64,000 nt of DNA, taken from Actinomycetes bacterium (GTDB taxonomy: Bacteria > Actinomycetota > Actinomycetes > S36-B12). The DNA lies in assembly GCA_024641635.1 (NCBI GenBank), contig JAHECS010000015.1:1-64000 (forward strand), written 5' to 3'. Both the position numbers and the translations under genes were made by a program. Under the pieces are notes generated by a model. The model saw only the letters and a program-made list of their open reading frames with translations, searched no databases and was not told the DNA's origin. Positions 4,395-45,116 of the stretch are shown here, one piece after another; within the stretch, counting starts at the first letter, position 1, and the number at the start of each line of letters is the position of its first letter.

Positions 4395-4395
4395 G

Positions 4396-5598: not shown

Positions 5599-6549
5599 CT
5601 ACTTGACGATCTTCAGCGGCACGCTCATGAGCTTGCCGAACTTGCGCGGGGCCTTCAGCAGGCGACCGAGCTCGTCGAAGGTCTGCAGCAGGTCGGCCTC
5701 GAACTGCAGTGCCGCCGCGGCGTAGATGTCACCGCTCTTGACGGCCGCGAGGACCTCCTCGTTGCCACCGTTCTCGGTGAGGCACGGAAGGGACTTGCCT
5801 GCCGACTCGAAGGCGCTGATCGCGCCGAGTGCCGCCTCGTCATTGCCACCCGTGACCGCCTTGACGTTCGGGTGCGCCTGCAGCGCTGCCGCGATGTCCT
5901 TCTGCGCTGTCGGACGGTCGATGTTCTCGATCGTCTGGACGACCGTCGCGTTGGGTGCCGTCGCCTTCAGCCACTTCAGCACGGCCGCGTCCTGCTCAGC
6001 CTTGCCCGCGGTGCCGGGGCGAGGCGTGAAGACGATGACCTCTGCCTTGCCGCCGAGCTTCTGGTTGATGCACTGTCCGGCCGTGACGCCCATAGCCGCG
6101 CCGAGCTTGTTGTAGTCGATGCGAGCGAAGCTGAGGCCACGCTGCGGGCCCTTGAAGCCGTAGTCCTTCGGGACACCGTTGAGCACCAGCGGGACGCGCT
6201 TCTTCTGCGCGAGGCGGGCCACCTTCGCGTTGGCGGCGGGCTTCACCGAGATGACCCATGCGGCGTCGGCCTTGCCGGAGTTGATGACTGCGGTGAGCTG
6301 CTGGGCCTGCTTCACCGCATTGAAGTTGGGGTCGAGGATGAGGGTGTTGTAACCCTTTGCGGCGCCGACGGCCTTGACGCCCTCGGAGAGGCCCTTGAGC
6401 GCCGGGATGGCGAGCGCCAGCGGCGAGAAGGCGATCGTGTCCTTGTCGGCCGCCTGTGCGGGTGCCGCCACCATGAAGCTCGTGGTCGCGACGGCCGCTG
6501 CAGCGCCGATTGCGGCGGCCTTGCGGCCGCGGGTGAGGAATGACTTCAC
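5599..6549 (-). CDS. Sugar-type ABC substrate-binding protein (secreted, no lipobox)
   Basis: A 316-aa periplasmic-binding-protein type 1 (RbsB-like) receptor. It starts with GTG preceded by AAAGGAG. A classical signal peptide covers residues 1-33 (charged start, Ala-rich core, cleavage after AQA). There is no cysteine at the cleavage site, so it is not an obvious lipoprotein, unlike the other two binding proteins in this window. The mature part has alternating Rossmann-like segments (AWVISVKP, VTGGNDEAALGA). It is the first gene of the operon that continues into permease, ATPase, rhamnosidase and glucosidase, so the ligand is probably the rhamnosyl-glucoside or its aglycone conjugate (inference). 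Confidence 0.88.
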   Translation of the reverse strand: MKSFLTRGRKAAAIGAAAAVATTSFMVAAPAQAADKDTIAFSPLALAIPALKGLSEGVKAVGAAKGYNTLILDPNFNAVKQAQQLTAVINSGKADAAWVISVKPAANAKVARLAQKKRVPLVLNGVPKDYGFKGPQRGLSFARIDYNKLGAAMGVTAGQCINQKLGGKAEVIVFTPRPGTAGKAEQDAAVLKWLKATAPNATVVQTIENIDRPTAQKDIAAALQAHPNVKAVTGGNDEAALGAISAFESAGKSLPCLTENGGNEEVLAAVKSGDIYAAAALQFEADLLQTFDELGRLLKAPRKFGKLMSVPLKIVK

Positions 6550-6682: not shown

Positions 6683-7453
6683 TCATCCCCCCATCGCGCT
6701 CACACCGCCGTCGATGACGATGTTGGCGCCGTTGATGTAGGACGAGTCGTCTGAGGCCAGGAACGTCACCAGTGCGGCGATGTCCTCCGGCTGGCCGATC
6801 CGACGGGACGGGGTTCGGGCGATGAGGCCCGGTACCGGTCCGTCGGGATCGTCGGTGAACTGGGCCGTCTCGGGGGTGCGGACCATCCCCGGCGAGATGG
6901 CGTTGGCGCGGATGCCGACGCCCGCGCCCGCAGCCGTGGTGTGCATCGTGAACGCGACCACGCCGCCCTTGGCGGCGCCATGCGGCGCCATCGGGACGAA
7001 CTCCACGCCGCGGATGGCAGCGATCGACCCGACATTGATGATCGAGCCGCCGCCTCGGGCCACCAGGTGCGGCCAGGCGGCCCGCGTGCAGTGGAAGACG
7101 AGGTGCAGCTCGTTCTGGATGGTGAAGTACCAGTCCTCGAGGGGGATGGTGTCGATCGCGCCGTGCCGCAGCGCCGAGGCGTTGTTGTAGAGGATGTCGA
7201 AGCCGCCGAACTCGTCGACTGCGGCCTGCACCCAGGCATCCGCGCCGTCCTGGGAGGACAGGTCGACAGGGGCAAGCCCGCTCATCACACCACCCGCCTC
7301 GCGCACGAGTTGAATCGTTTCATTATTCTCCGAGATGTCAAGGTCCGCGCCGAAGACCCGAGCACCCTGTCGGGCGAACTCGAGGGCGACGGCACGACCG
7401 ATCCCGCGGCCGGTGCCGCTGATCAGTGCCGTCTTGCCGTCAAGAACGCCCAT
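6683..7453 (-). CDS. SDR-family protein with His in place of the catalytic Tyr
   Basis: A 256-aa short-chain dehydrogenase/reductase fold. The cofactor motif GTGRGIG is at residues 13-19, with LYNNAS near 88-93 and the catalytic-region Ser at about 143. Where the family has YxxxK, this protein has HGAAK (His158, Lys162), so normal SDR proton relay is questionable. The C-terminus (NIVIDGGVSAMGG) is typical. It is the last gene of the leftward operon that starts at 11172 and follows the BKACE gene by 8 nt. It could act on a keto or hydroxy intermediate, or be non-reductive; I cannot assign a substrate. Confidence 0.8.
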   Translation of the reverse strand: MGVLDGKTALISGTGRGIGRAVALEFARQGARVFGADLDISENNETIQLVREAGGVMSGLAPVDLSSQDGADAWVQAAVDEFGGFDILYNNASALRHGAIDTIPLEDWYFTIQNELHLVFHCTRAAWPHLVARGGGSIINVGSIAAIRGVEFVPMAPHGAAKGGVVAFTMHTTAAGAGVGIRANAISPGMVRTPETAQFTDDPDGPVPGLIARTPSRRIGQPEDIAALVTFLASDDSSYINGANIVIDGGVSAMGG

Positions 7454-7461
7454 GATCGCCC

Positions 7462-8277
7462 CTACCGCGCCGGCAGACTGAGGATCTGCTCGGTCTCGTC
7501 GACGGAGGCGATGGACAGGTCCATGGCCCGGGCCAGGTCTGCCGTCCTCTTCACCAGGGGCGTGTTTCCCGGGGACAGCTCCCCCTTGCGGAGGTAGAGC
7601 GTGTCCTCCAGTCCGGCTCGCGCGTTGCCGCCGAGGGCCAGGCCGATGGCCGTGAGCTCGAGGTTGGACCGCCCGATGGCGATGATCTGCCAGACGCAGT
7701 CGTCGGGCAGCCGGTCGACCATCATGACGAGATTCGCCGGCGTGGCTGAGGCGCCACCCCGGACGCCGAGCACGATGGAGAACTGCAGCGGCGTCGCCAG
7801 CAGCCCTTCCTCGTAGAGGCGGATGCACGCGTCGAGGTGTCCGGTGTCGTACACCTCGAGCTCGGGCTTCACGTCGAGCTCGCGCATGCGTGCCGCCAGG
7901 CGACGCACGCCGTCCGGTGGATTGCGGAACTCCCCAGCCCCGAAGCTCATGGTGCACGGGTTGAGCGTCGCCATCCGAGGACGCAGCTCGACGAGCTTCT
8001 CCCGCTCCTCGAAGGGCACCGACAGGCCCACGCCCGTGGAGAGCTGGATGTGGATGGGGCACCGCTCGTGGATCAGGTCCATCGTGCGGCGGGCGATCCC
8101 GAGGTCGGCCGTCGGCCGCTGCTGCTCGTCCCTGAGGTGGATGTGCGCGACCGAGGCCCCTTCGAGGTACGCCTCATAGACGGCGTTCGCGATCTCCTCA
8201 GGCGACGTCGGCAGGTCGGGGTTGTCGGCCGTCGTGGCGATGGGACCCGTCGTCGCAACGGTCAGCACGACTCCCAT
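7462..8277 (-). CDS. BKACE-family beta-keto acid cleavage enzyme; candidate triacetate acetoacetate-lyase
   Basis: A 271-aa member of the DUF849/BKACE family. These Zn enzymes condense a beta-keto acid with acetyl-CoA and release acetoacetate and a new acyl-CoA. The metal motif HIHLRD is at residues 45-50, and the C-terminal GLEDTLYL...GNTPLV segment carries the conserved Glu. The start overlaps the cupin stop (ATGA). Within an operon holding a cyclohydrolase, a 3-hydroxyacid dehydrogenase and an SDR, and opposite a CoA-transferase pair, the best-fitting role is cleavage of triacetate (3,5-dioxohexanoate) in phloroglucinol breakdown. Family assignment is firm; the substrate is inferred from gene order. 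Confidence 0.85.
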   Translation of the reverse strand: MGVVLTVATTGPIATTADNPDLPTSPEEIANAVYEAYLEGASVAHIHLRDEQQRPTADLGIARRTMDLIHERCPIHIQLSTGVGLSVPFEEREKLVELRPRMATLNPCTMSFGAGEFRNPPDGVRRLAARMRELDVKPELEVYDTGHLDACIRLYEEGLLATPLQFSIVLGVRGGASATPANLVMMVDRLPDDCVWQIIAIGRSNLELTAIGLALGGNARAGLEDTLYLRKGELSPGNTPLVKRTADLARAMDLSIASVDETEQILSLPAR

Positions 8278-8621
8278 CAGACGGCCTTCGGGTTCGCGAT
8301 CGCCACCACAAGCACGGCATCGGAGTCGGACTCGTTCACCAGCTCGCGATGGTCGCCCTTCACGAAGTGGACCGAGTCGTACTGGCCCAGGTGCTCGGTC
8401 TGCCCGTTGGCGCGCAGCACGAACTCGCCGCTCGCCACGAAGTAGATGGACTCGCCGACGATGTCGGAGGGGCCGGCGGTGGAACCCGGCGGGTAGACCG
8501 AGAGCCCCATCCAGAAACCCTCGGTCGCCCCGACCTCCATCCCCTGCAGTCGCCGAGTGTCGACGCCCGTGTGGAAGGGGGCGTCGTACGGCACGGCATC
8601 GGGACGCCTCGTGATGTGCAT
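8277..8621 (-). CDS. Small cupin protein
   Basis: A 114-aa single-domain cupin with a beta-barrel pattern (VGESIYFVASGEFVLRANG, then SVHFVKGDHRELVNESD). The usual His-rich metal motif of cupin motif 1 is not obvious. It is coupled to both neighbours: one base after the cyclase stop (TGACATG) and overlapping the BKACE start. It may be an isomerase or accessory sensor of the pathway intermediate; function unassigned. Confidence 0.75.
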   Translation of the reverse strand: MHITRRPDAVPYDAPFHTGVDTRRLQGMEVGATEGFWMGLSVYPPGSTAGPSDIVGESIYFVASGEFVLRANGQTEHLGQYDSVHFVKGDHRELVNESDSDAVLVVAIANPKAV

Positions 8622-8622
8622 G

Positions 8623-9456
8623 TCAGTTGGTGCCCGTCTCGATGCGGTAGGTGCCGGAGGGGTCGGTGATCGCCACCAGGCGGACGATGCAGCCGTCGCC
8701 GCCGCGCCAGCGCCACGGGAAGGCCGCGAACGTCACGCGCTTGCCGGTCACCTTGTCCACGTCGCCGCCCACGTTCTCGAAGCCGTAGATGCCGTGGGTG
8801 AGGATCTCGCGGTGGCAGGGCTCCCACAGGGCGAACTCGTCGGCGACCTTCTTGCCGGTCTCCGCTTCGAACTCCTCGCAGGCCCACGGCAGCAGGCCGC
8901 CCTGCTTCTCGGCCGGCCCGTGCGGTCCGATGGCCGTGGCCAGCGGATGGTCCAGGGCCTGGGTGTCGGTGCCGACCGCCTTGACGCCCTTGGACACGAA
9001 CCACTCGCCGGCCTCCTTGTAGAAGCCGGGGCTGTAGGCGTAGTACTCCGCGCTGTCGGCGTACTTGTGGTGCCATCCGGTGTTGACGATGACGATGTCG
9101 CCCGGGCGCACGGGCGTCTTCTCGGCGGCCGCCTCGAGGTGCTCGGGCATGATCTTCTCCCACTTGCCCATCGGCACGTCGAGGACGACGCCGGTTCCGA
9201 AGAAGGCGCTCAGCGGGATCTCGTCGAGCAGCGGAGTGCCCTCCACGACGTGACCGGGCGCGTCGATGTGGGTACCCGAGTGCATCACGGTGGTGATCTT
9301 CTGGGTCAGCACCCGGCTCTTGGCCATGCCGTGCAGGCGCTCGATCTTCACGTCCTCGAAGTACGGCCAGCAGGGCTGACCGAGCCCCCACGAGTGGGAC
9401 AGCTCCACGAACTCCAACTGGGACTCGGCCTCGCCGAGGGGCCACGTGTACGTCAT
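8623..9456 (-). CDS. Cyclase-family metal hydrolase; candidate dihydrophloroglucinol cyclohydrolase
   Basis: A 277-aa protein of the cyclase / kynurenine-formamidase-like hydrolase family. The metal-binding signature HSGTHIDAPGH is at residues 59-69, followed by GDIVIVNTGWHHKY. Start at 9456 is preceded by AAAGGA; a longer frame to 9735 runs through the upstream gene and is not credible. These hydrolases open cyclic amides or 1,3-diketones. In this operon a ring-opening of dihydrophloroglucinol to 3-hydroxy-5-oxohexanoate would connect the upstream SDR and the dehydrogenase to the BKACE step. The family is clear; the reaction is inferred. Confidence 0.82.
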   Translation of the reverse strand: MTYTWPLGEAESQLEFVELSHSWGLGQPCWPYFEDVKIERLHGMAKSRVLTQKITTVMHSGTHIDAPGHVVEGTPLLDEIPLSAFFGTGVVLDVPMGKWEKIMPEHLEAAAEKTPVRPGDIVIVNTGWHHKYADSAEYYAYSPGFYKEAGEWFVSKGVKAVGTDTQALDHPLATAIGPHGPAEKQGGLLPWACEEFEAETGKKVADEFALWEPCHREILTHGIYGFENVGGDVDKVTGKRVTFAAFPWRWRGGDGCIVRLVAITDPSGTYRIETGTN

Positions 9457-9484: not shown

Positions 9485-10387
9485 TCATGAGTTCTGGGGA
9501 GCGAGTTGCTCTTGGACATGGGCGGACAGTCGCGCGGCCGCGGCCTCGCGTGCACCGTCGGGCCAGGCCAGGAAGCCCCCGCCGGTCTTGGCCCCGAGCT
9601 GGCCGTTCGCCACCAGCTCGCGCAGGTAGGGGCTGGCGTGCGGTTCGCGGCAGATGCTCGGCAGCACGGCCTCGTGGATGGCAAGGGTGAGGTCGAGTCC
9701 GACGTAGTCGGCGTTCTCGATCGGGCCCATCTCACCCAGGCGCAGCCCGATGGTGTTGCGGACGACGAGGTCCACGGTCTCGGGGCCGCATACGCCGCTG
9801 GCCACCAGGTCGATGGCCTCTCGCCACAGGGCGTGCTGGAGCCGGTTGCCGACGAAGCCGGGCACGTCCTTCTCCACGCGTACCGGAAGCTTGCCGATCG
9901 CAGCCATGAAGTCGTACGTGCGCTCCATCGTCTCGTCCGACGTCCGCTCGCCCCGCACCACCTCCACGATCGGGATCAGGTCCGGCGGGTTCCAGAAGTG
10001 GGTGCCGACGCAACGCGTACCGTCGGCGACGCGCTCCGCGATGGCGGTGATCGGCAGGACCGAGGAGTTCGAGCAGATGATCGCGCGTGGATTCGCCTCG
10101 GCGACGGCCGCGAAGAGCTCCTGCTTGACGGCCAGGTCCTCGACGATCGCCTCGATGACGAGGTCGGCGGCGGCGACCCCGTCGCGCACCGAGCCGGCCC
10201 CCGTGATGGTCCCCTCCGGGGCCATCGCTCGCGCGTCGGCGAGACCACTGTCGAGGACCTCCGGGATGACCTCGACGAGGGTCACGGCCACGCCCGATCG
10301 GGCGACGAGTCCGGCCAGTCGACGACCCATGAGGCCGGCGCCGATGACAGCGACGGACTCGATGGCCTGGGGAGCGGGGCTCAGCAC
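9485..10387 (-). CDS. 3-hydroxyacyl-CoA-dehydrogenase-like NAD enzyme; candidate 3-hydroxy-5-oxohexanoate dehydrogenase
   Basis: A 300-aa protein with the N-terminal NAD-binding motif GAGLMG (residues 16-21), the catalytic His in GTHFWNPPDL (His130) and a helical C-terminal domain beginning near VPGFVGNRLQ. It has the length of a stand-alone FadB-type dehydrogenase. It starts 7 nt inside the upstream SDR gene. In this operon it would oxidise a free 3-hydroxy acid rather than a fatty acyl-CoA, producing the 3,5-dioxo acid cleaved by the BKACE enzyme (inference). Confidence 0.82.
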   Translation of the reverse strand: MLSPAPQAIESVAVIGAGLMGRRLAGLVARSGVAVTLVEVIPEVLDSGLADARAMAPEGTITGAGSVRDGVAAADLVIEAIVEDLAVKQELFAAVAEANPRAIICSNSSVLPITAIAERVADGTRCVGTHFWNPPDLIPIVEVVRGERTSDETMERTYDFMAAIGKLPVRVEKDVPGFVGNRLQHALWREAIDLVASGVCGPETVDLVVRNTIGLRLGEMGPIENADYVGLDLTLAIHEAVLPSICREPHASPYLRELVANGQLGAKTGGGFLAWPDGAREAAAARLSAHVQEQLAPQNS

Positions 10388-11172
10388 GCGGTGTAGCCGC
10401 CGTCGAGGTACAGGACCTGGCCGGTCATGAACGTGGACGCGTCACTGAGCAGGTACTGGAGCGCTCCGACGAAGTCCTCCGGCTCGGCGAAGCGCCGCAA
10501 CGGGATGCGCGCGAACATGGCCTCGCGGACCGAGCGACCCTTGTCGTCGTCCGCGTACATCCAGGCGGTGAGCTCCGACCTGAAGACCGTCGGCGCGATG
10601 ACGTTGACCCGGATCCCGGCGCCACCCCACTCCGTCGCGAGGGTCTTGCCGAGGAGGTCGACCGCCGCCTTGGACGGGCAGTAGGCCGAGTAGCCGGCGG
10701 GGTGCCCCAGCTTGCCGCGGGTGGACGAGACGAGCACGACTGAGCCGCCTTCGCCCTGGGCCAGCAGCACGCGCCCGGCCGCCTGCGCCATGAGCCAGGA
10801 GCCCTTCACGTTGGCGTCCATGACGGCCTCCCAGTCCTCGACGGACTGGTCGACGATCGGCGAAACCTTGTTCATCCCGGAGGCGACGAGCATCCCGTCC
10901 AGCCGACCGAAGGCGTCCGTCGCGGCGGAGACGATGGCTGCGGCGTCCTCCGGCGTGTCCGGCCGGTGCGGTGCGATGGCCACGTGCCCCACCAGCTCAT
11001 CGCGGCCGGCCAGGTCCTGGAGGGCAGCCACGTTGCCACCTGCCAGCGTGATGCTGGCCCCGGCCGCACCCAGCCCGAGCGCCGCCTCGCGGCCCATGGC
11101 GCCCGAGGCACCCGTGATGACGATGGACTTGCCCGCCAGGCTGAACCTCGACGTCGGATCCGGAACGCTCAT
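10381..11172 (-). CDS. SDR-family reductase; candidate phloroglucinol reductase
   Basis: A 263-aa classical SDR with cofactor motif TGASGAMG (residues 20-27), a Ser in VVLVSSTRG (about 149-150) and intact YCPSK (Tyr164, Lys168). It is the first gene of the leftward operon and starts 8 nt after a -10 element, so its mRNA is probably leaderless. Known phloroglucinol reductases are NADPH-dependent SDRs, and the four following genes match the next enzymes of that route. A 3-oxoacyl reductase role cannot be excluded from sequence alone. Confidence 0.8.
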   Translation of the reverse strand: MSVPDPTSRFSLAGKSIVITGASGAMGREAALGLGAAGASITLAGGNVAALQDLAGRDELVGHVAIAPHRPDTPEDAAAIVSAATDAFGRLDGMLVASGMNKVSPIVDQSVEDWEAVMDANVKGSWLMAQAAGRVLLAQGEGGSVVLVSSTRGKLGHPAGYSAYCPSKAAVDLLGKTLATEWGGAGIRVNVIAPTVFRSELTAWMYADDDKGRSVREAMFARIPLRRFAEPEDFVGALQYLLSDASTFMTGQVLYLDGGYTAC

Positions 11173-11311: not shown

Positions 11312-12067
11312 ATGGACAAGGTCGTGGCGTCGGCCGCCGAGGCGGTGGCCGACGTGCCGTCGGGCGCCTCGATGGCGGTGGGCGGCTTCGGGCTGAACGG
11401 GATCCCCAGCGTGCTGATCGAGGCGCTGGTGGACATGGGCGTGGACGGCCTGGCGGTCGTGTCGAACAACTGCGGCGTGGACGACTGGGGCCTCGGCCTG
11501 CTGCTCCGCGAGCACCGGATCGCCCGGATCACCGGCTCCTACGTGGGCGAGAACAAGGAGTTCGAGCGGCAGTACCTGACCGGGGAGCTCGAGGTGGAGC
11601 TGATCCCGCAGGGCACGTTGGCCGAACGGCTGCGGGCGGGGGGCGCGGGGATACCCGCCTTCTACACCCCCGCGGGGGTCGGCACCCCCGTTGCGGACGG
11701 GGGCATGCCCCTTCGGCACGCCCCCGACGGCTCGGTGGCCCTGGCCAGTGAGCCGAAGGAGACGCGGGCGTTCGACGGACAGGAGTACGTCCTCGAGCGG
11801 GGTATCCGCACCGACTTCGCACTCGTGCGGGCCAGCGTCGGGGACCGGCACGGGAACCTGGTGTTCGAACAGGCCACCCGCAACTTCAATCCGCTCGTCG
11901 CCGCGGCGGGCCGGGTGACGATCGCGGAGGTCGAGACCCTGGTGGAGCCCGGCGAGATCAACCCCCGCGACGTGCACACCCCCGGCATCTTCGTTCAGCG
12001 GGTGGTCACGCTCACTCCGGAGCAGGTGGCGGCCAAGCGCATCGAGAGAAGGACGGTCAGGTCGTGA
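11312..12067 (+). CDS. 3-oxoacid CoA-transferase, subunit A
   Basis: A 251-aa alpha subunit of the succinyl-CoA:3-oxoacid (SCOT/PcaI/AtoD) CoA-transferase family. It has the N-terminal MAVGGFGLNGIP motif, GSYVGENKEFE and the ELIPQGTLAERLRAGGAGIP segment. The start has AGGAG upstream and a possible -10 (TACGAT, 11282-11287). It overlaps a tiny frame and precedes subunit B. It probably activates acetoacetate, the free product of the BKACE reaction on the opposite strand, to acetoacetyl-CoA; a 3-oxoadipate role is also possible because aromatic genes lie close by. Confidence 0.9.
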   Translation: MDKVVASAAEAVADVPSGASMAVGGFGLNGIPSVLIEALVDMGVDGLAVVSNNCGVDDWGLGLLLREHRIARITGSYVGENKEFERQYLTGELEVELIPQGTLAERLRAGGAGIPAFYTPAGVGTPVADGGMPLRHAPDGSVALASEPKETRAFDGQEYVLERGIRTDFALVRASVGDRHGNLVFEQATRNFNPLVAAAGRVTIAEVETLVEPGEINPRDVHTPGIFVQRVVTLTPEQVAAKRIERRTVRS

Positions 12068-12159
12068 CGGAACCGGAGTTCGGCCCCGACGACTATCGCG
12101 ACGCGATCCTGAGCACCGTCGACCCGACCGGGGAGGGCGACCATGCCGTGGACGCGTGA
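12064..12159 (+). CDS. Possible 31-aa ORF between the CoA-transferase subunits
   Basis: A GTG overlapping the subunit A stop (GTGA) opens a 31-codon frame (begins [19 protein letters not shown]) that overlaps the start of subunit B by 17 nt. Subunit genes of this family are normally adjacent, so this insert is unusual. It may be a translational-coupling leader for subunit B, a remnant, or chance. No family recognised. Confidence 0.25.
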
Positions 12160-12772
12160 GCAGCTGGCCGCCCGCGTCGGACGCGAACTGGCCGACGGCC
12201 AGTACGTCAACCTGGGCATCGGACTGCCTACCCTGATCCCCAACCACCTGCCCGAGGGCGTGCACGTCGTGCTGCAGTCCGAGAACGGGATCCTCGGCAC
12301 CGGGCCGTACCCCACCGAGGATGAGGTGGATCCGGACCTCATCAACGCCGGCAAGGAGACGGTCACCGTCCTTCCCGGCGCCTCCTTCTTCGACTCCGCC
12401 TCGAGCTTCGGCATGATCCGTGGCGGCCACATCGACGTCGCCGTCCTCGGGGCCATGCAGGTGTCCGCGACCGGCGACCTCGCCAACTGGATGATCCCCG
12501 GCAAGATGGTCAAGGGCATGGGGGGCGCCATGGATCTCGTCCACGGCGCCAAGCGCGTCATCGTCATGATGGAGCACACCGCCAAGGACGGCAGTCACAA
12601 GATCGTGCCCACGTGCACCCTCCCCCTGACCGGCCGGCACGTCGTCCACCGCATCATCACCGACCTCGCCGTCATCGACGTCACCCCCGAGGGCCTCGTC
12701 CTCGTCGAGACGGCCCCCGACGTCACCCCTGACGACGTGCGCGTTGCCACCGGCGCCGCGCTGACGACGTAG
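12143..12772 (+). CDS. 3-oxoacid CoA-transferase, subunit B
   Basis: A 209-aa beta subunit of the SCOT/PcaJ/AtoA type. The glycine-rich [15 protein letters not shown] segment and the catalytic-Glu motif [12 protein letters not shown] are present, as are [15 protein letters not shown] and the C-terminal [12 protein letters not shown] region. GGGAGGG lies just before the ATG at 12143. It works with the A subunit encoded upstream in transferring CoA between succinyl-CoA and a 3-oxoacid. Confidence 0.9.
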
Positions 12773-13236: not shown

Positions 13237-14055
13237 CTACGCGAACTCCACCACGCCCATCCCGGTGATCCACGAGGACACCGGCTCGTAGGCGAGCACG
13301 GTCGCCGGCGTCGGAGCCGCCGCCGCGGCGACGGCCACCCAGCTGCGGATCTCGTGGGCCCCGTTGCCGGCCAGGACGATCTCGTCGTCGGTCATGTCGA
13401 GCAGCGACTCCGTCTCCCCCGCCGCGAGTCGCGCGAGGAACCACCTGTCGAACTCCTCGTCGATGTCGCCCACGCGCGGATGACCCACCCAGTGGGACAG
13501 GCCGCCCGCGCCGATCAGCGCGACGCGCTCGTCCCCGGGGAAGGAATCGATGGCGTGACGCAGCGCAACGCCCAGGTCCCATGACCGGGCGAGCGGCATG
13601 AGGGGCGGCACCGCGCAGTTCTGCACGATGGGAACGAGCCGGGTCCGATGCTGCGGGTCGAGCTCCTGGTACACCGTCATGATCCCGTGGTCCATGTCGA
13701 GACGGTGCGAGAAGGCCGGGTCGAGCCCCTCGCCCAGCAGACTCGCGGTGAGGTGCTCGCCGAGGGCGGGATTGCCCTCGACCCAGCCCTGCTCGATGCC
13801 CAGCCAGGGCTCCGCGGGGCCCATGTTGCGCTCCCCCACGCCGATGCACACCTGCGGGAACGACTCGAGGAAGAAGTTCGTGAAGTGCTCGTTCGCGAGG
13901 ATCACCGTCGTCGTGACGCGGCGTTCGGCCAGCTCGGCACGCAGGTGGGCGAGGGCGCCGAAGAATCGGTCCCGCTGCTCGACCGGCGCCGACTCCCGCG
14001 CAGACGCCATCATCGGCGCGTGCGAGGAGCACGCTGCCAGGACTAGCTCTGCCAT
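13237..14055 (-). CDS. LigB-type extradiol ring-cleavage dioxygenase, catalytic subunit
   Basis: A 272-aa class III extradiol dioxygenase beta subunit. The Fe-ligand pattern of LigB is visible: His12 (SSHAPMM), His57 (NEHFTNF) and the late Glu in GNGAHEIRSW. The catalytic-base region GGLSHWVG is present. It starts 13 nt inside the LigA-like gene, so the two are coupled. The likely substrate is protocatechuate or a related catechol acid, cleaved at the 4,5-bond. Protocatechuate would come from PobA nearby or from flavonol cleavage. The downstream ligC-type dehydrogenase is not in this window. Confidence 0.85.
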   Translation of the reverse strand: MAELVLAACSSHAPMMASARESAPVEQRDRFFGALAHLRAELAERRVTTTVILANEHFTNFFLESFPQVCIGVGERNMGPAEPWLGIEQGWVEGNPALGEHLTASLLGEGLDPAFSHRLDMDHGIMTVYQELDPQHRTRLVPIVQNCAVPPLMPLARSWDLGVALRHAIDSFPGDERVALIGAGGLSHWVGHPRVGDIDEEFDRWFLARLAAGETESLLDMTDDEIVLAGNGAHEIRSWVAVAAAAAPTPATVLAYEPVSSWITGMGVVEFA

Positions 14056-14318
14056 CGTCCCCTCCTGTCCTCGGCAACCGCGAAGGGCTGCAGGATCTCC
14101 CGGTAGGCGTCACGCGAGTAGCCGACCTGCCGGCAGTACCGGTTGAGGAGCACGCCGTGCAGCCCGAGCTCGTAGAAGGCGGCGACGTCGCGCTGGTCGA
14201 ACGCGGCCCGCTCCGCCGGGGTCAGGTCATAGGTCGACACGTCGAAGAGGTCGACCCGGCCCCGTTCGTTGGCCCGGATGAAGTCGTAGACACACCGGTG
14301 CATGTCGTACCAGGTCAT
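14043..14318 (-). CDS. LigA-type extradiol dioxygenase small subunit
   Basis: A 91-aa alpha subunit of the LigAB family. Matching features are a short N-terminal helix (DMHRCVYDFIR), YDLTPAERAAFDQRD and the motif YELGLHGVLLNRYCRQVG. The ATG at 14318 overlaps the amidohydrolase stop (ATGA) and has GAGGAGG upstream. The protein caps the active site of the LigB subunit encoded next. It is shorter than Sphingomonad LigA (about 139 aa) but matches the minimal domain. Confidence 0.82.
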   Translation of the reverse strand: MTWYDMHRCVYDFIRANERGRVDLFDVSTYDLTPAERAAFDQRDVAAFYELGLHGVLLNRYCRQVGYSRDAYREILQPFAVAEDRRGRWQS

Positions 14319-15331
14319 CCATCCTCCTCGAGTCGCAGCCCGAGCAACGTGGCGGCGGTGGTCTGCTGAACCCGTGCAGCGTCGGCCGCGTCGAGGCCGA
14401 GGCTGGCAACGGTACCGAGCGGATCGCGGTCGGCGAGCTCGAAGGGGAAGTCGGTCCCCACGACGAGTCGCTCGGCGCCGACATCCTCGGCGAGGTGGCG
14501 GAGGATCTCCGGGGAGAACACCGCGGTGTCGTAGTAGAGGTCCGCCACGTACCCGCTCGGCGGCCGAGGCGTCGAGTGCGCGACCTCCTTGCGATCCCAC
14601 CCGAGGTCGAGGCGCCCGCGCAGCCACGGCAGGCAGCCGCCCCCGTGCGCCAGGCACAGCGGGAACGGATGACGCTCACGCACGCCAGCGAAGACCAGCC
14701 GGGTGACCGCGATGGCCGTCTCCATCGGGTAGCCCAGCAGCTGCGGGAGGTAGTAGTCGGACATGCGCGACAGGTCCGGGACCCCGCTCGGGTGCAGGAA
14801 GGTGAACGCGCGACGCTCGTGGAGGAGGGACCACAGCGGTTCGTTCACCACGTCGTCCAGCTCCCGGCCGGCACCACGGGTACCGATCGCGACCCCTCTC
14901 ATGCCCTCGTCGAGGCACCGTGCCGCCTCGTCCGCGGCCCCCGGCGTGCCCACCGGAACGGACGCCAGGGCGACCAGCCGCTCAGGGGCACCGGCGACGT
15001 AGGCGGCGAGCTCCTCGTTGCCGCGGCGTACGACCTGCTCCGCGAGATCGGCGTCGGCGGAGGTGGAGCACAGCAGGAACGGCGGCAGCGACACGGCGTG
15101 ATGCGTGACGCCGGCCCCGTCCATCTCCGTCAGACGCACGTCGACGTCCCACTGCGATCGCGCGAGGGGCAGGGGTGCGCCGGGAGCCACTCCGCTCACC
15201 TGCGAGTCGAGCCGGACGATGCCGCTCGCGGCGCTGGGGTCCACACCGGACAGGTCCGCGAGACCCTGCTGCTCGAGCCAGCGAAGCAGGGGCATCGGCA
15301 TCGCGTGGGCGTGGATGTCGATGACGGCCAT
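14315..15331 (-). CDS. Amidohydrolase of the ACMSD/LigJ type
   Basis: A 338-aa metal-dependent amidohydrolase. The N-terminal metal pair is DIHAH (about residues 4-8), with FLHPSG, LAHGGG and the metal-associated Asp in GTDFPFEL following in order. Members are decarboxylases (ACMSD, gamma-resorcylate decarboxylase) or the 4-oxalomesaconate hydratase LigJ, which has nearly the same length. Its coupling to LigA and LigB favours a protocatechuate 4,5-cleavage role such as LigJ, but decarboxylation of an aromatic acid is equally possible from sequence. Confidence 0.82.
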   Translation of the reverse strand: MAVIDIHAHAMPMPLLRWLEQQGLADLSGVDPSAASGIVRLDSQVSGVAPGAPLPLARSQWDVDVRLTEMDGAGVTHHAVSLPPFLLCSTSADADLAEQVVRRGNEELAAYVAGAPERLVALASVPVGTPGAADEAARCLDEGMRGVAIGTRGAGRELDDVVNEPLWSLLHERRAFTFLHPSGVPDLSRMSDYYLPQLLGYPMETAIAVTRLVFAGVRERHPFPLCLAHGGGCLPWLRGRLDLGWDRKEVAHSTPRPPSGYVADLYYDTAVFSPEILRHLAEDVGAERLVVGTDFPFELADRDPLGTVASLGLDAADAARVQQTTAATLLGLRLEEDG

Positions 15332-15400: not shown

Positions 15401-16180
15401 ATGGGTACTGCACGCCCTGGTCCGAGCGTCACGTCGCGGGCGCTCGCGATCCTCGGCGCCATCGACGAGCGCCATCCTCGACAGACGCTCAGCGAGCTGT
15501 CCGAGAGGGCCGGCCTGCCCCTGTCGACCACGCACCGCCTCGTGGCCGAACTCGTCGCGTGGGGAGCTCTCGAGCGCGACGCCGACGGGCGCTATGTCGT
15601 CGGGCGCCGGCTCTGGCAGCTCGGCACCCTGGCCCCCGTCCATCGCGGCCTCCGCGAGATCGCCGTGGCGCCGATGCAGGATCTCTACGCCGTCACGCAT
15701 GAGAACGTCCACCTCGCCGTCCGCTCTGACGTCGCCGCCCTGTACGTGGAGCGGATCTACGGCGCCTCCTCCGTCGCACTGGTCAGCAGGCCGGGGGCCA
15801 AGCTGCCGCTGCACGCCACCGGCGTCGGCAAGGTCCTCCTTGCGCACGCACCGACGGACGTCATCGACCGGGTCTTGTCGAACCTCACCTCCGTGACCCG
15901 GTACACGATCACCGAGTCCGGGCGGATGGCACGCGAGCTGGCCGCCATCCGCCGCCTCGGCTACGCGGGGACGTCCGAGGAGATGACGCTCGGCACGTGC
16001 TCCGTCGCCGTCCCGATCCGGGACGACGCAGGCGAGGTGGTCGCCTCGCTCGGCCTCGTCACTCGCACGGTGAGGCGCGACCTGGCCAAGTTCGTGCCGG
16101 CCCTGAACGTGGCCGCCGCGGCGATCACCCGTGGCCTTCGGGAGGAGGCGGCTGCCGACGCCTTCCGGTCAACGGAATAG
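15401..16180 (+). CDS. IclR-family transcriptional regulator
   Basis: A 259-aa IclR protein. The winged helix-turn-helix covers about residues 10-70 (LSELSERAGLPLSTTHRLV), and the effector-binding domain follows, with LPLHATGVGKVLLAHA and the C-terminal GTCSVAVPIRDDAGEVVASLGL. AAGGAG precedes the ATG by 5 nt. It is divergent from the amidohydrolase-ligAB operon and upstream of pobA. IclR proteins (PcaR, PobR) commonly sense protocatechuate or 4-hydroxybenzoate, so it probably controls both flanking units (inference). Confidence 0.9.
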   Translation: MGTARPGPSVTSRALAILGAIDERHPRQTLSELSERAGLPLSTTHRLVAELVAWGALERDADGRYVVGRRLWQLGTLAPVHRGLREIAVAPMQDLYAVTHENVHLAVRSDVAALYVERIYGASSVALVSRPGAKLPLHATGVGKVLLAHAPTDVIDRVLSNLTSVTRYTITESGRMARELAAIRRLGYAGTSEEMTLGTCSVAVPIRDDAGEVVASLGLVTRTVRRDLAKFVPALNVAAAAITRGLREEAAADAFRSTE

Positions 16181-16220: not shown

Positions 16221-17399
16221 ATGCGCACCCGGGTAGGCATCATCGGAGCAGGGCCGGCGGGCCTGCTGCTGTCGCAGCTGCTCTCCCACCACGGCATCGA
16301 CTCCGTCATCATCGAGACCCGGTCGCAGGAGTACGTCGAGGCACGGATCCGCGCCGGAGTGATCGAGCACGGGGCGGTGCAGACCCTCACGGAGGCCGGG
16401 GTCGCCGACCGGCTGCACCGGGAGGGCATGCGGCACGACGGCATCTACCTCCAGTGGCCCGGCGAGCGGCACCACCTCGACTTCCCCGACCTCTGCGGCC
16501 AGTCCGTGTGGGTGTACGGGCAGACCGAGCTCACCAAGGACCTGTTCCGGATCCGGCTCGAGGCAGGACAGCCCATCCACTTCGAGGTGTCGGATGTCTC
16601 GATCATCGATCCGCTGGCCGAACGACCAGGCATCGCGTTCACGGATGCCGACGGGACGCCCCAGCTCCTCGAGTGCGACGCGGTAGCCGGCTGCGACGGG
16701 TTCCACGGGGTCAGCCGCGACACCATCCCCGAGTCCGTCCGCACCGTGTGGCAGCGCATCTACCCGTATTCGTGGCTCGGCATCCTCGCGGAGGTCGCGC
16801 CGTCCACTGACGAGCTGATCTACGCGTGGCATCCGGAGGGCTTCGCCCTCCACAGCATGCGATCGCACAGCATCAGCCGGCTCTACGTGCAGGTCGCTCC
16901 GGACGACGTGATCGAGAACTGGCCAGACGACCGGATCTGGGAGGCGCTCGCGACCCGGATGGCTCTCGACGGCTGGACGCTCGACTCCGGGCCAACCCTG
17001 GAGAAGGGCATCACGCCGATGCGGAGCTTCGTCAGCGCCCCGATGCGCTACGGGAACCTCTTCCTCGCCGGCGACGCCGCGCATATCGTCCCCCCCACCG
17101 GGGCGAAGGGCCTGAACCTGGCCATCGCCGACGTCACCCGGCTGAGCGACGCCCTCGTGCGCCGCTTCACCGAGGGCAGGGAGGACCTGGTCGACGCGTA
17201 CTCCGACGCCGCCCTGCAGCGGGTGTGGCGCTCGACGCACTTCTCGTGGTGGATGACCAGCATGCTTCATGCGGACGATCCGGCCGACGCCAACGCCGCC
17301 TTCCTCCGGCAGATGCAGCTCTCGCAGCTCCGCTACGTCACCTCCTCCCGCGCCGCCAGCACGACCCTGGCGGAGAACTACACCGGCTTCAGCGGGTGA
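16221..17399 (+). CDS. pobA: 4-hydroxybenzoate 3-monooxygenase
   Basis: A 392-aa flavoprotein that converts 4-hydroxybenzoate to protocatechuate with NAD(P)H and O2. FAD motifs are GAGPAG (residues 9-14) and GDAAHIVPPTGAKGLNLA. Aligned by eye to the Pseudomonas enzyme, the active-site set is complete: Tyr201 in LIYA, Ser212/Arg214 in HSMRS, Arg220 and Tyr222 in SRLYVQV, and Tyr385 in LAENYTG. Arg44 of the NADPH site is present. No clear ribosome-binding site precedes the ATG; the gene follows the IclR gene by 40 nt and overlaps the next gene by 4 nt. Confidence 0.93.
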   Translation: MRTRVGIIGAGPAGLLLSQLLSHHGIDSVIIETRSQEYVEARIRAGVIEHGAVQTLTEAGVADRLHREGMRHDGIYLQWPGERHHLDFPDLCGQSVWVYGQTELTKDLFRIRLEAGQPIHFEVSDVSIIDPLAERPGIAFTDADGTPQLLECDAVAGCDGFHGVSRDTIPESVRTVWQRIYPYSWLGILAEVAPSTDELIYAWHPEGFALHSMRSHSISRLYVQVAPDDVIENWPDDRIWEALATRMALDGWTLDSGPTLEKGITPMRSFVSAPMRYGNLFLAGDAAHIVPPTGAKGLNLAIADVTRLSDALVRRFTEGREDLVDAYSDAALQRVWRSTHFSWWMTSMLHADDPADANAAFLRQMQLSQLRYVTSSRAASTTLAENYTGFSG

Positions 17400-18346: not shown

Positions 18347-18353
18347 CGTGAAC

Positions 18354-18928: not shown

Positions 18929-19462
18929 ATGACATTCAGCGAGGCAACGTGGCAGGGAGTCCTGCCCGGCAAGCCCGAGCCGTTCTTCCTCGACGCCGGG
19001 GACGGTGAGCGCTCGGTGGTCTTCGATCAGCTCTTCACGGTGCTGCTCTCGGCGGACGAGACGCAGGGGCAGTTCGGCTGCTTCACGATGGAGGCGCACA
19101 AGGGCCAGACGATCGTCGCCCACACCCATGCCGACGTGCATGAGACGTTCTACGTCATCGAGGGGACGGTCAAGCTCTTCCTCGAGGACCACGAGGGGAA
19201 CCAGCTCTCCCGCATCCTCAACCCCGGTGACTTCGGCTACGTGCCCGCGACGTACCTGCACGCGTTCCGCGCCGAGGGCGACTACAACAAGGTCTTCGGT
19301 GTCTCGACTGGCGGGTTCGAGCGGTTCTTCCACGCGCTGGGCACGATGACGGACGACAGAGGAGCCCCAGCGGAGCCGTTCATCCCGTCGCGGGAGCAGA
19401 TGGGCGAGGCGTTCGGCCGGTACAGCAACATCCCCAAGCTCGACCAGCAGTGGCAGGAGTAG
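18929..19462 (+). CDS. Quercetin 2,3-dioxygenase-like monocupin
   Basis: A 177-aa single-domain cupin. Cupin motif 1 is complete (GQTIVAHTHADVHETFYVIEG: His65, His67, Glu72), and motif 2 has PGDFGYVP...LHAF with His111. This gives the 3-His/1-Glu metal site of quercetinases. The length and the flanking blocks (GKPEPFF, FDQLFTVLL, FERFFHALG) resemble the roughly 186-aa monocupin quercetinases of actinobacteria. GGAGG precedes the ATG. The reaction would split the flavonol C-ring to CO and a depside. It heads an operon with an amidohydrolase and an alpha/beta hydrolase that could process the depside. Other flavonol-type or unrelated substrates cannot be excluded. Confidence 0.78.
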   Translation: MTFSEATWQGVLPGKPEPFFLDAGDGERSVVFDQLFTVLLSADETQGQFGCFTMEAHKGQTIVAHTHADVHETFYVIEGTVKLFLEDHEGNQLSRILNPGDFGYVPATYLHAFRAEGDYNKVFGVSTGGFERFFHALGTMTDDRGAPAEPFIPSREQMGEAFGRYSNIPKLDQQWQE

Positions 19463-20418
19463 CCGGACGCCCGGCCGGGGACGGCTGGGTCGACGTCCAC
19501 GCGCACTTCACCACTCCGGAGTACGTGGCGGCCGCCGACGCGGCCGGCTACGGAAGCCCGGACGGGATGCGGGGCTATCCGGCCTGGTCGGCCGCCGAGC
19601 ACCTTCGACTCCTCGATGACAACGGCATCGACACGGCGGTCCTGTCGATGTCGTCGCCTGGGGTGCACTTCGGCGACGACACGGCCGCACGGGTGCTGGC
19701 CCGCGAGGTGAACCACGTCGCGGCGGCGGCGATGACCGACCACCCGGACCGCTTCGCGTTCTTCGCCGCGTTGCCCCTTCCGGACGTGGAGTCGTCCGTG
19801 GCAGAGCTGATCTTCGCCATGGACGAGCTCGGCGCCTCGGGCGCGGTCGTCGAGACCAACGCGCACGGCCTGTACCTCGGCGACGGCCGGATGGACCCCG
19901 TCTACGCCGCGCTCGACGAGCGGCAGGGCATCCTGTTCATCCATCCGACCTCCCCTGCCTGCCACGAGGCGACGTCGCTGGGGCGTCCGAGACCCATGAT
20001 CGAGTTCCTCTTCGACACCGCTCGCGCCGTCACCGATCTCGTGCTCGCGGGGGTTCCTCGCCGCTTCCCCAGGATGCCGATCATCGTTCCCCATGCGGGT
20101 GGCGTGCTGCCGATGGTCGCCGACCGGATCCAGGGCTTCATGTCCATCTTCGGCGACCCCGAGGCTCCGCGGCCCGACGTCCACGGGGACCTCGCGCGGA
20201 TGTACTACGACCTCGCGGGCGACCCCTTCCCGCGGTTGGTGCCCGCACTCCTCACCCTCACCGACCGCGGGCACGTGCTCTACGGGACCGACTACTGCTG
20301 GACCCCGGCCCCCGGCGTGGCTCGCCGTCTCGAGCTCATCGAGGCCGACTCCCCCGACTGGCGGGCGAGCACGACCCGTGCCGCGCGCTCCCTGCTGGAC
20401 GACGTGAGACGAGGCTGA
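19450..20418 (+). CDS. ACMSD-type amidohydrolase/decarboxylase
   Basis: A 322-aa metal-dependent amidohydrolase with VDVHAH (His17, His19), FIHPTS, VPHAGG and the conserved Asp in YGTDYCW. This is the pattern of ACMSD and gamma-resorcylate decarboxylase. The GTG start lies 13 nt inside the cupin gene, and no other start precedes the metal motif. Sitting between a quercetinase-like cupin and an esterase-like hydrolase, a decarboxylase for 2,4,6-trihydroxybenzoate (yielding phloroglucinol) is an attractive inference. A different 2,6-dihydroxybenzoate-like acid is possible. Confidence 0.83.
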   Translation: MAGVAGRPAGDGWVDVHAHFTTPEYVAAADAAGYGSPDGMRGYPAWSAAEHLRLLDDNGIDTAVLSMSSPGVHFGDDTAARVLAREVNHVAAAAMTDHPDRFAFFAALPLPDVESSVAELIFAMDELGASGAVVETNAHGLYLGDGRMDPVYAALDERQGILFIHPTSPACHEATSLGRPRPMIEFLFDTARAVTDLVLAGVPRRFPRMPIIVPHAGGVLPMVADRIQGFMSIFGDPEAPRPDVHGDLARMYYDLAGDPFPRLVPALLTLTDRGHVLYGTDYCWTPAPGVARRLELIEADSPDWRASTTRAARSLLDDVRRG

Positions 20419-20419
20419 G

Positions 20420-21313
20420 ATGGCCCTGGAGATCCCGATCCCGCCACCGCAGTGGGTGCGCCCGCTGCCGCCCGCGGCCATCGCCGACGGCATGCGGTCG
20501 TATCGGGACGTCGAGTACTGGCACGAGCCGGGATTCCGTCCGCTCTCCCTTGACATCCACCTGCCCGTCGACGTCGCGGGGCCACGGCCCCTCATCCTGT
20601 TCATCCATGGAGGCGCGTGGCTCTTCGGCACGAGGACGGTGTTCAGCCCGGTCTACCTGGGCGTGGCCGAGCCGTTCGCCGAGATGGTCGCCGCCGGTTT
20701 CGCTGTCGTCTCAGTCGACTACCGGCTCTCGGCAGAGGCCACGTGGCCGGCGCCCCTGCACGACGTCGCCGCCGCCTTCCGCTACGTGGTGGCCCGTTCC
20801 GACGAGCTGGGCGTCGACGTCACGAGGACTGCCGCCTGGGGGGAGTCCGCCGGCGGCCATCTCGCCATGATGCTGGCCTTCCGTCAGGGCGATCGGGAGG
20901 CCATCGGGTCGGACGGGCCGCCGGTGGACCTCCCCCCGATCGCCGCCCTCGTCGACTGGTACGGGGTCGCGGACATCCGCGTGCCCATGCCGGGGTTCCC
21001 GCTCGAAGGCCCCTCCCCCGAGTCCCTCCTGATCGGCGGCGAGGATCCCGCCACCCACCCCCTGGGGCGGGACGCGTCTCCCATCGCGCACGTCGGCCGC
21101 CTGCCGGCGGCGCTGATCATGCACGGCACCGCGGACTCGCTCGTGCCGTGCGACGGCTCGCGCCGGATGGCAGCGGCTCTCGAGCGGACCGGCACGCCGG
21201 TGACGGCCCAGTGGTTCGACGGAGCCGAGCACGGCTGGCTTGGTGACGTCGACGTGATGCAGCGCGCCCTCGCGGGCACGATCGACTGGCTCGTGGAGAC
21301 GCTCAGGCCGTAG
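20420..21313 (+). CDS. Alpha/beta hydrolase (HSL/GDSAG-type esterase)
   Basis: A 297-aa serine hydrolase. The oxyanion motif HGGAW is at residues 63-67, the nucleophile elbow GESAGG has Ser143, and the Asp (HGTADSLV) and His (AEHGWL) of the triad follow. It has no signal peptide. It begins one base after the amidohydrolase stop. The natural role in this operon would be hydrolysis of the ester (depside) released by flavonol cleavage, giving protocatechuate and trihydroxybenzoate. Its 3' end overlaps the convergent MFS gene by 11 nt. Confidence 0.85.
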   Translation: MALEIPIPPPQWVRPLPPAAIADGMRSYRDVEYWHEPGFRPLSLDIHLPVDVAGPRPLILFIHGGAWLFGTRTVFSPVYLGVAEPFAEMVAAGFAVVSVDYRLSAEATWPAPLHDVAAAFRYVVARSDELGVDVTRTAAWGESAGGHLAMMLAFRQGDREAIGSDGPPVDLPPIAALVDWYGVADIRVPMPGFPLEGPSPESLLIGGEDPATHPLGRDASPIAHVGRLPAALIMHGTADSLVPCDGSRRMAAALERTGTPVTAQWFDGAEHGWLGDVDVMQRALAGTIDWLVETLRP

Positions 21314-22520
21314 GGCGCGCCGGTGCCATGAATCGGTGCGCGAGCAGGCCGGCGGCCGTGAAGGCCACCATGAGAACGCCCATCGCCGCCCCACCGACAC
21401 TGCCGAGGGGGGCGAGGAGGCCACCCACGAGGAAGCCCGAGATGCCGAGCAGTGCGGACGCCGATCCCGCTCGCGCCGGGGCCGCCTCGAAGCCGAGTGC
21501 GGTCCCGTTGGCGAAGGCGAGAGTGATCGGGCCAATCGACAGGAAGAGGCCGACGAGGATCATCGGCAGGGAGTGCGCCAGGAGCGCCGTCAGGGTGATG
21601 ACCGAGCCGATGAAGGTGAGCACCTGCCCGGTCCACAGAAGACGCACCGGGCCGAAGCGCCGGACGAGCCTTCGACCGATGAGGGCCATCGTGAAGATGC
21701 CCAGGGAGTTGAGGGCGAAGACTCCGCCGTACGCCGTGGGCGAGAGGCCGTAGCCATCCTCGAGGACGAAGGAGGACGAGCCGATGTAGGCGAAGAGCAT
21801 GCCCCCTGTGCACGCGAGGATGACGACATAGGCCATGAACGGACGATGCCTCACCAGGATGCCCAGATCCCCCAACGCGCTGCGCAGGCCCTTCTCACCC
21901 CGGTGCTCGACCGGCAGGGTCTCCGGAACCTTGACGTACGCGATCGCCAGAATGCCGACGCCCAGGCCGGCGAGGACGAGGAACACCCCCCGCCAGTCGA
22001 GGAACAGCGCGAGGACGCCGCCGATGATGGGCGAGACCACGGGAGCCACACCGGTGATCGCCCCCAGCAGGGCATAGCCGCGGGCGAGCTCCAGGGCATG
22101 CAGGGCATCCGCGACCATCGCCCGCGCGACGACGAACGCGAGAGCCGCAGCCACGCCCGCGGCGAACCGGATGACGATGAGGGCGCCGATCGACGGCGCG
22201 ACAGCGCTCAGTGCCGTCATGACGATGAACGAGGCAAGCCCGAGCAGCAGGACCGGACGCCGACCGCGCTGGTCGCTGACCGGGCCACCGAAGATCTGAC
22301 CCACGGCGAGTCCGACGAGGACGGCGGTCACCGTCGCAGCAGCGGCCGCGTTCGACGTCGAGAAGGTCGTGGCCACCTGGGGCAGCAGCGGCAGGTAGAC
22401 GTCCGTCGACAGTGGCCCGAGGGCGACGAAGAGGGCTGCCAGGGGGACGATGCGCGGCCCGATGGGCGTGCGCCCGACGATGGCCACGGTTGACCGTATT
22501 CGACGTTCGACGCCTCTCAC
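21303..22520 (-). CDS. MFS efflux transporter, Bcr/CflA type
   Basis: A 405-aa membrane protein with about 12 hydrophobic segments. The family motifs LGPLSTDVYLPLLPQV near the N-terminus and GGPVSDQRGRRPVLL in loop 2-3 mark the Bcr/CflA drug-resistance group. The GTG at 22520 is the longest start; another GTG at 22487 is possible. It may export a toxic phenolic or pathway intermediate. It is separated from the YCII gene by 43 nt and could be the last gene of the region 2 operon. Confidence 0.85.
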   Translation of the reverse strand: MRGVERRIRSTVAIVGRTPIGPRIVPLAALFVALGPLSTDVYLPLLPQVATTFSTSNAAAAATVTAVLVGLAVGQIFGGPVSDQRGRRPVLLLGLASFIVMTALSAVAPSIGALIVIRFAAGVAAALAFVVARAMVADALHALELARGYALLGAITGVAPVVSPIIGGVLALFLDWRGVFLVLAGLGVGILAIAYVKVPETLPVEHRGEKGLRSALGDLGILVRHRPFMAYVVILACTGGMLFAYIGSSSFVLEDGYGLSPTAYGGVFALNSLGIFTMALIGRRLVRRFGPVRLLWTGQVLTFIGSVITLTALLAHSLPMILVGLFLSIGPITLAFANGTALGFEAAPARAGSASALLGISGFLVGGLLAPLGSVGGAAMGVLMVAFTAAGLLAHRFMAPARPTA

Positions 22521-40813: not shown

Positions 40814-40829
40814 CGACCGGTCTCCCCTC

Positions 40830-40852
40830 TGTTCGACGAAGCGTAGTGTTCG
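40830..40852. repeat. Direct repeat TGTTCG upstream of the XRE-cupin gene
   Basis: TGTTCG occurs at 40830-40835 and 40847-40852 (17-base period), overlapping the probable promoter of the XRE-cupin gene. A related TGTTCAG/CTGAACA pair flanks the promoter of the next operon, so these are candidate half-sites for this regulator. Confidence 0.35.
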
Positions 40853-40893
40853 GACGTCCTACTCCTGCCAGCGGCGCGCGGCCGCGGGCACCG

Positions 40894-41679: not shown

Positions 41680-41721
41680 GCCCAACTCCTCTCGTCTGCC
41701 CTGGTTGCCTGCCGTCCGTGC

Positions 41722-42519: not shown

Positions 42520-42559
42520 CTTGCCTCCCTCGCTCGATCCAGCCGTCGGTGACGGCGTC

Positions 42560-42952: not shown

Positions 42953-42993
42953 GGTCTGTGCCTTCCGGGATGGGCGGTGGGTGCCGCGGTCGG

Positions 42994-44073: not shown

Positions 44074-44109
44074 GCGTGGGCTCCTGTTCCGTTTGCTGGT
44101 GCTGGACGG

Positions 44110-44138
44110 ATGCTAAGGGCCACTGAGCAGCATGTAAA
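44110..44138 (-). promoter_or_regulatory. Promoter of the PRISE-type reductase gene
   Basis: On the minus strand TTTACA (44138-44133) and TAGCAT (44115-44110) are separated by 17 bases. The -35 region lies within a few bases of the stop codon of the upstream isomerase gene. Confidence 0.55.
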
Positions 44139-44141
44139 GCA

Positions 44142-45071: not shown

Positions 45072-45116
45072 GCGGACAGCGTGTCATGCCTGACTTAACG
45101 CTGGCCACGAAACGGG

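Follow-up and report, generated by a model that had tools for sequence, protein, structure and literature searches.

A QueD-like cupin operon beside phloroglucinol genes suggests a clustered route for flavonol degradation in an actinobacterium

Three adjacent genes for a cupin, an amidohydrolase and an alpha/beta hydrolase raise the question of whether an actinobacterium opens the C-ring of plant flavonols and passes the product on to the phloroglucinol genes encoded on the same stretch of DNA. The window, by which we mean the whole stretch of 64,000 nucleotides that was analysed, represents contig 56 of a genome of 3.06 Mb and 97% completeness. Based on the gene identities, the active-site residues and the repeated linkage of these genes in unrelated genomes, we consider it likely (probability of about 0.78) that the operon would serve flavonol C-ring opening and would feed a phloroglucinol pathway. 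An ORF search in the window recovered all three plus-strand ORFs as the adjacent or overlapping genes that an earlier note on this DNA had described, whereby the cupin and amidohydrolase ORFs share a 13-bp overlap and 1 bp separates the amidohydrolase from the esterase ORF. The G+C content of the window is 69%, and the codon-position pattern of the three ORFs, with G+C fractions of 0.93, 0.90, and 0.92 at position 3 and of 0.40, 0.51, and 0.53 at position 2, is that of real genes. Together with a GGAGG sequence upstream of the cupin ATG at 18929, this pattern, the overlap and the short gap are consistent with a single transcription unit and translational coupling. The region between the PobA gene and the cupin gene (17318-18887) encodes a luciferase-like monooxygenase, which scores just under the cut-off of the F420 family TIGR03621, and a glyoxalase-fold protein, both on the opposite strand. 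Further features are listed in Table 1.

Table 1. Genes of the window in and around the proposed route of flavonol glycoside degradation.
Feature	Position	Strand	Basis
GH1 beta-glucosidase family	116..1381	-	PF00232 4e-65
GH78 alpha-L-rhamnosidase	1357..3618	-	PF17389 3e-94
ABC ATPase	3615..4430	-	PF00005
ABC permease	4396..5565	-	PF02653
Sugar-type periplasmic binding protein	5599..6549	-	PF13407
Second short-chain dehydrogenase	6683..7462	-	Profile search
Triacetate acetoacetate-lyase (TAL) homologue, BKACE family	7462..8277	-	Ile at amino-binding Glu position of Kce
Small cupin without H-x-H	8277..8621	-	Kept in actinobacterial phloroglucinol operons
Dihydrophloroglucinol cyclohydrolase (DPGC) homologue	8623..9456	-	PF04199 5e-37, cyclase family; 78-97% homologues in syntenic operons
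3-Hydroxy-5-oxohexanoate dehydrogenase (TfD) homologue	9485..10387	-	3HCDH family
Phloroglucinol reductase (PGR) homologue	10381..11172	-	5g4k E 6e-48; syntenic in G459, G776 and relatives
CoA transferase subunit A	11312..12067	+	PF01144
CoA transferase subunit B	12143..12772	+	PF01144
LigB-family class III extradiol dioxygenase	13237..14055	-	PF02900 1e-33
ACMSD-like decarboxylase, candidate for B-ring extradiol route	14315..15331	-	2wm1 E 6e-40
IclR-family regulator, PcaR/PobR type	15401..16180	+	TIGR02431 3e-40, under its cut-off
PobA, 4-hydroxybenzoate 3-monooxygenase (kaempferol B ring)	16221..17399	+	PRK08243 559.9 bits (cut-off 351)
Monocupin quercetinase (flavonol 2,4-dioxygenase), QueD-like, putative	18929..19462	+	5fli E 1.6e-41; HxH(x4)E...H kept
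Amidohydrolase, proposed 2,4,6-trihydroxybenzoate decarboxylase	19450..20418	+	Amidohydro_2; adjoins quercetinase in 12 genomes
Alpha/beta hydrolase (BD-FAE/HSL type), proposed depsidase	20420..21313	+	Family profiles, GESAGG nucleophile motif
Bcr/CflA-type MFS transporter, convergent with esterase gene	21303..22520	-	Homologue adjoins quercetinase in G459

The cupin was recognized by the Cupin_2 profile (1.5e-10), and its closest solved relative, as the best match among all solved chains, is QueD of Streptomyces sp. FLA (5fli, E 1.6e-41), with 42% identity over 164 aa in a full-length alignment. Both proteins (QueD: PDB 5fli, 5flj) have monocupin size and the metal ligands H-x-H(x4)E plus a distal H, all four of which are intact in the window cupin. 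Further quercetin 2,3-dioxygenases, among them two-domain bacterial ones, come next after QueD; oxalate decarboxylases score far weaker, and no pirins occur among the solved relatives at E-values up to 1. This bears out the full 3-His/1-Glu site and quercetinase layout that the earlier note had read from the sequence, and instead of the pirin or sensor cupins that it had named as the opposing outcome, QueD stands at the top. Homologues nearer than QueD are enzymes from Amycolatopsis and Geodermatophilaceae (46-52% over the full length) and, as the closest relatives, two Streptomyces-like proteins (62% in genome G757 and 61% in G520). The source genome shares its class with the Streptomyces-like genus that bears near-identical QueD genes. 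Altogether, these data support the prediction that the window cupin is a QueD-type, flavonol-cleaving and CO-releasing quercetinase.

The alpha/beta hydrolase matches the BD-FAE profile (2.7e-44) as well as Abhydrolase_3 and carries a GESAGG nucleophile motif at residue 141, in agreement with the HSL-type esterase that had been proposed. A five-sequence model (pLDDT 75) matches the carbohydrate and lipase-type esterases 6nkf and 6xyc, whereby profiles and model define the class of the enzyme and not its substrate. An esterase gene lies beside the quercetinase gene in all seven Amycolatopsis, Geodermatophilus, and Blastococcus loci and, with 1.5 kb flanks, in at least 16 of 29 Streptomyces-like loci, and both genes are also adjacent in an annotated Streptomyces plasmid locus. 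Adjacency to the esterase is thus the most general feature of quercetinase loci, which suits a depside esterase, and it is this linkage in other genomes that supports such a role for the window hydrolase.

For the 6.7-12.8 kb region, the earlier note had proposed one phloroglucinol operon. Its content proved correct, but the genes form two units. One lies on the minus strand and extends from 11172 to lower coordinates; the other, divergent from it, is the CoA-transferase pair (11312-12772). The structure 5g4k, whose PDB title reads only short-chain dehydrogenase, we take to be a phloroglucinol reductase. The PGR, DPGC, TfD, and TAL families are all present and contiguous in the window. In Clostridium scatologenes, where this set has been proved as the phloroglucinol pathway, the same four enzyme families are likewise contiguous and accompanied by a CoA transferase (PMC10470551). 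The window cluster differs in that it is actinobacterial and has an additional small cupin gene between those for DPGC and TAL. An alignment with 2y7d revealed that the amino-binding glutamate of Kce is lost in the window TAL, which has Ile at this position, whereas the Clostridium TAL has Trp. Each of the eight other actinobacterial phloroglucinol clusters that we inspected has a homologue of the small cupin (8277-8621), with 44-81% identity, and the word "cupin" is missing from the main text of the pathway paper (PMC10470551). Furthermore, DPGC is 96-97% identical across genera of the window's family, whereas the neighbouring 3HCDH protein reaches 64-80%, an unusually large difference for neighbours in the same operon (L093-L096). 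The two clusters also differ in their entry, which in C. scatologenes consists of flavone reductase, chalcone isomerase, and phloretin hydrolase, whereas the window cluster is linked to an O2-dependent quercetinase. Mycobacterium clusters include a phloretin hydrolase according to Zhou et al. (PMC10470551). As an alternative entry into the window pathway this enzyme was discarded, its family being absent among the window proteins in a Pfam scan that covered all but the last 11 kb.

The genes for PobA and a PcaR/PobR-like IclR regulator are located between the phloroglucinol and the quercetinase modules. Protocatechuate 3,4-cleavage was considered and turned down for the source genome, in which no pcaGH pair was found and the only Dioxygenase_C gene reads as a single-gene intradiol type. 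Since the pcaGH pair is missing, an extradiol route is preferred, and the LigB dioxygenase and the ACMSD-like gene product (13237-15331) may serve the B-ring instead of pcaGH, possibly in a protocatechuate 2,3-cleavage of the PraA/PraH type.

From 11172 down to 116, the phloroglucinol, ABC transporter, GH78, and GH1 genes all run in the same direction. In other genomes, GH1 genes occur near the quercetinase gene in Blastococcus and Geodermatophilus, and a GH78 gene does so in G534. As the transporter and glycosidase genes continue the phloroglucinol run and similar linkage exists elsewhere, rutin-type rhamnoglucosides would be the likely natural source of the flavonols. A second sugar-catabolic group, consisting of genes for SDRs, an FAA hydrolase, a xylose-isomerase-like protein, and an HTH-cupin regulator, lies at 40070-48872 and might metabolise rhamnose or other sugars freed from glycosides.

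The linkage between flavonol cleavage and the phloroglucinol pathway, which had been proposed from gene order in the window, is backed independently by other genomes. In G459, the order is amidohydrolase-quercetinase-MFS, with 2.1 kb from the quercetinase to a PGR-TfD-DPGC-cupin-TAL run; an esterase homologue is absent from the 40 kb of this locus. Such co-location of quercetinase and amidohydrolase genes with a phloroglucinol operon is rare. DPGC homologues (78-79%) were found in only 2 of 344 Streptomyces-like genomes, both of which also have a quercetinase (chance 0.023). In G776, quercetinase and esterase genes are located on a different contig from the phloroglucinol operon. No quercetinase was found in 58 relatives from the genus, family, and order of the source organism, and among 396 genomes drawn from the phylum two others have one. 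Several relatives hold the phloroglucinol operon without a quercetinase, and from this distribution it looks as if the quercetinase module had been acquired onto an existing phloroglucinol pathway.

The weak point of the route is the amidohydrolase. It belongs to Amidohydro_2 (PF04909, 1e-24), and its closest solved structure, 2f6k (1e-45), is without assigned function, followed by 5-carboxyvanillate decarboxylase, gamma-resorcylate decarboxylase, and ACMSD. With these decarboxylases (cog2159) it shares the fold family by sequence, and both the profile and the H(5), H(6), and D(8) positions of the ACMSD/LigW/IDCase decarboxylase branch of Amidohydro_2 are found in it, the latter as H165, H215, and D281. 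Together with H17 and H19, these residues are invariant in 31 homologues. The metal motif is an ACMSD-like H-x-H (VDVHAHF at residue 14), whereas gamma-resorcylate decarboxylases have E-x-H. The protein is therefore a member of a broad H-x-H family without a characterised close member and lies outside the gamma-resorcylate family proper; of its earlier description as ACMSD/gamma-resorcylate-type, the Amidohydro_2 branch and the ACMSD-like motif stand and the second family name does not. A single-sequence AlphaFold model (pLDDT 38) was left out of the evidence. In a tree, the window amidohydrolase sits on a long branch apart from the groups with good support, and it does not group confidently with the quercetinase-linked Streptomyces clade, although a placement in this clade was not rejected either (p-AU 0.074).

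Of 45 close copies of the amidohydrolase gene in the 344 Streptomyces-like genomes, 12 lie within ~0.7 kb of a quercetinase gene, and the two genes co-occur in 17 genomes compared to 6.5 expected, an excess that is driven in large part by the adjacency itself. The order quercetinase-amidohydrolase-esterase is present at loci L029 and L060, whereby the L029 cupin is 98.2% identical to QueD. However, most Streptomyces-like quercetinase loci, as well as those of Geodermatophilaceae and Amycolatopsis, have no amidohydrolase gene beside the quercetinase gene, so that flavonol cleavage does not depend on this enzyme. The subfamily also occurs without a quercetinase, including in two relatives from the window's own family, and because other copies adjoin unrelated genes, the substrate could not be told from the family alone. 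It could be that the amidohydrolase acts on the B-ring acid or some other acid or helps in depside hydrolysis, and that 2,4,6-trihydroxybenzoate is decarboxylated spontaneously or by another enzyme. The many non-quercetinase contexts of this broad subfamily, the functionally unassigned 2f6k, and the many quercetinase loci without an amidohydrolase would agree with this. Nevertheless, we regard it as doubtful, since the amidohydrolase is absent from quercetinase clusters that have their own B-ring genes (G757, G520, and G392) and present where a phloroglucinol operon is near (the window and G459), and since its metal and catalytic positions match the decarboxylase branch. Moreover, the phloroglucinol genes of G776 lack a homologue of the amidohydrolase and run instead with an MFS gene and another amidohydrolase gene, whose product has gamma-resorcylate decarboxylase as best solved match (1.4e-76). 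The case for a step in which a resorcylate-type acid is decarboxylated to phloroglucinol draws most strongly on this exchange, with two different decarboxylase-family genes in one and the same position. Thus, the "resorcylate-type decarboxylase" of the earlier note holds by analogy with G776, though not as family membership, and from its linkage the window amidohydrolase would quite probably be a 2,4,6-trihydroxybenzoate decarboxylase.

It might also be that the cupin and the esterase destroy toxic flavonols, and that the amidohydrolase and the phloroglucinol operon are chance neighbours or act on other substrates. QueD has been described in a review as mainly detoxifying rather than catabolic (PMC7663748), and cupin-esterase pairs stand alone in several plasmid and chromosome loci, e.g., L051. 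Such a function appears unlikely for the window, since a phloroglucinol operon is linked in G459 as well, since GH78, GH1, and ABC importer genes are co-directional with the window phloroglucinol genes, and since the closest relatives of the cupin lie inside a pca/pob cluster. In the latter, the gene order is pcaH-pcaB-pcaL-pobA-LysR-cupin-esterase-MFS (G757 and G520; L087 2-9014 and L088 870-10195), encoding the protocatechuate 3,4-dioxygenase beta subunit, a carboxymuconate cycloisomerase, a fused hydrolase/decarboxylase, PobA, and a LysR regulator besides the cupin, esterase, and MFS proteins. G392 has the order cupin-esterase-VanA-VanB-MFS, with VanA and VanB as Rieske oxygenase and reductase. 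In Amycolatopsis (L005, 5017-8317), the cupin-esterase pair is followed by genes for an intradiol dioxygenase, an FAA hydrolase, and an FAD hydroxylase. Across the Amycolatopsis and Geodermatophilaceae clusters (L005 and L008-L011), cupin-esterase is accompanied by genes of one or another of these three kinds or by a DUF3500 gene, and the Blastococcus locus contains an FAD hydroxylase and a DUF3500 protein. These neighbours suggest an oxidative treatment of the A-ring half in Amycolatopsis and Geodermatophilaceae and a reductive one in the window. That the cupin cleaves a related 3-hydroxylated compound, e.g., a flavonol-like substrate or a quinolone, in place of plant flavonols would fit its modest identity to QueD but is very unlikely, given that all ligands are kept, that no other cupin function scores near, and that the neighbours fit flavonol glycosides and B-ring acids.

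The reading that we prefer, flavonol C-ring cleavage through to phloroglucinol, had been suggested before and is largely supported by the QueD likeness and the linkage in other genomes. Rutin-type glycosides would be imported by the ABC transporter and deglycosylated by the GH78 and GH1 enzymes. In a first step, the metal-dependent monocupin would convert quercetin or kaempferol with O2 to CO and a depside, which the alpha/beta hydrolase would then split into 2,4,6-trihydroxybenzoate and protocatechuate (4-hydroxybenzoate from kaempferol). The amidohydrolase would convert 2,4,6-trihydroxybenzoate to phloroglucinol as the third step. Subsequently, PGR would reduce phloroglucinol, DPGC would open the ring, TfD would oxidise the product, and TAL would cleave triacetate to acetoacetate units, with participation of the CoA transferase. 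The B-ring acid would be processed via PobA and probably then by the LigB/ACMSD-like pair, so that both flavonol halves would enter central metabolism. All substrates in the source organism are predictions, that of the third step most of all.

Quercetinases of bacteria were first described two decades ago, and the fungal rutin pathway consists of rutinase, quercetinase, and depside esterase. The chemistry of deglycosylation, CO-releasing cleavage, and depside hydrolysis would follow the same order in the window, whereby the window route differs in being bacterial and clustered and in extending to phloroglucinol ring cleavage. Flavonoid catabolic clusters of soil bacteria are also represented by the isoflavone cluster ifc of Variovorax (PMC11069340) and by fde of Herbaspirillum; these start with flavonoid hydroxylation, whereas the window route would start with cupin C-ring cleavage. 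In the full text of open-licence literature, a scope in which absence is weak evidence, we found no paper that joins bacterial quercetinase, depside hydrolysis, trihydroxybenzoate decarboxylation, and phloroglucinol cleavage, nor one that assigns enzymes to the further conversion of the 2,4,6-trihydroxybenzoate half. Hence, the parts are all of known kinds, and the joined aerobic-reductive route appears to be undescribed.

Such a route would join two separately known pathways to one complete bacterial route for a common plant pigment, and the cluster provides a candidate for each step between a rutin-type glycoside and acetoacetate. On this view, aerobic bacteria would channel flavonol carbon through phloroglucinol with the same reductive enzymes that have been described from anaerobes, and one particular gene is put forward for a decarboxylase that is still unassigned. 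The view of QueD as a detoxification enzyme only is likewise called into question. We lean towards the view that actinobacteria have a clustered, complete route in which a quercetinase and the reductive phloroglucinol pathway are connected by a dedicated 2,4,6-trihydroxybenzoate decarboxylase, which would be a new activity for the H-x-H subfamily, and that QueD-type enzymes may be catabolic and not merely detoxifying.
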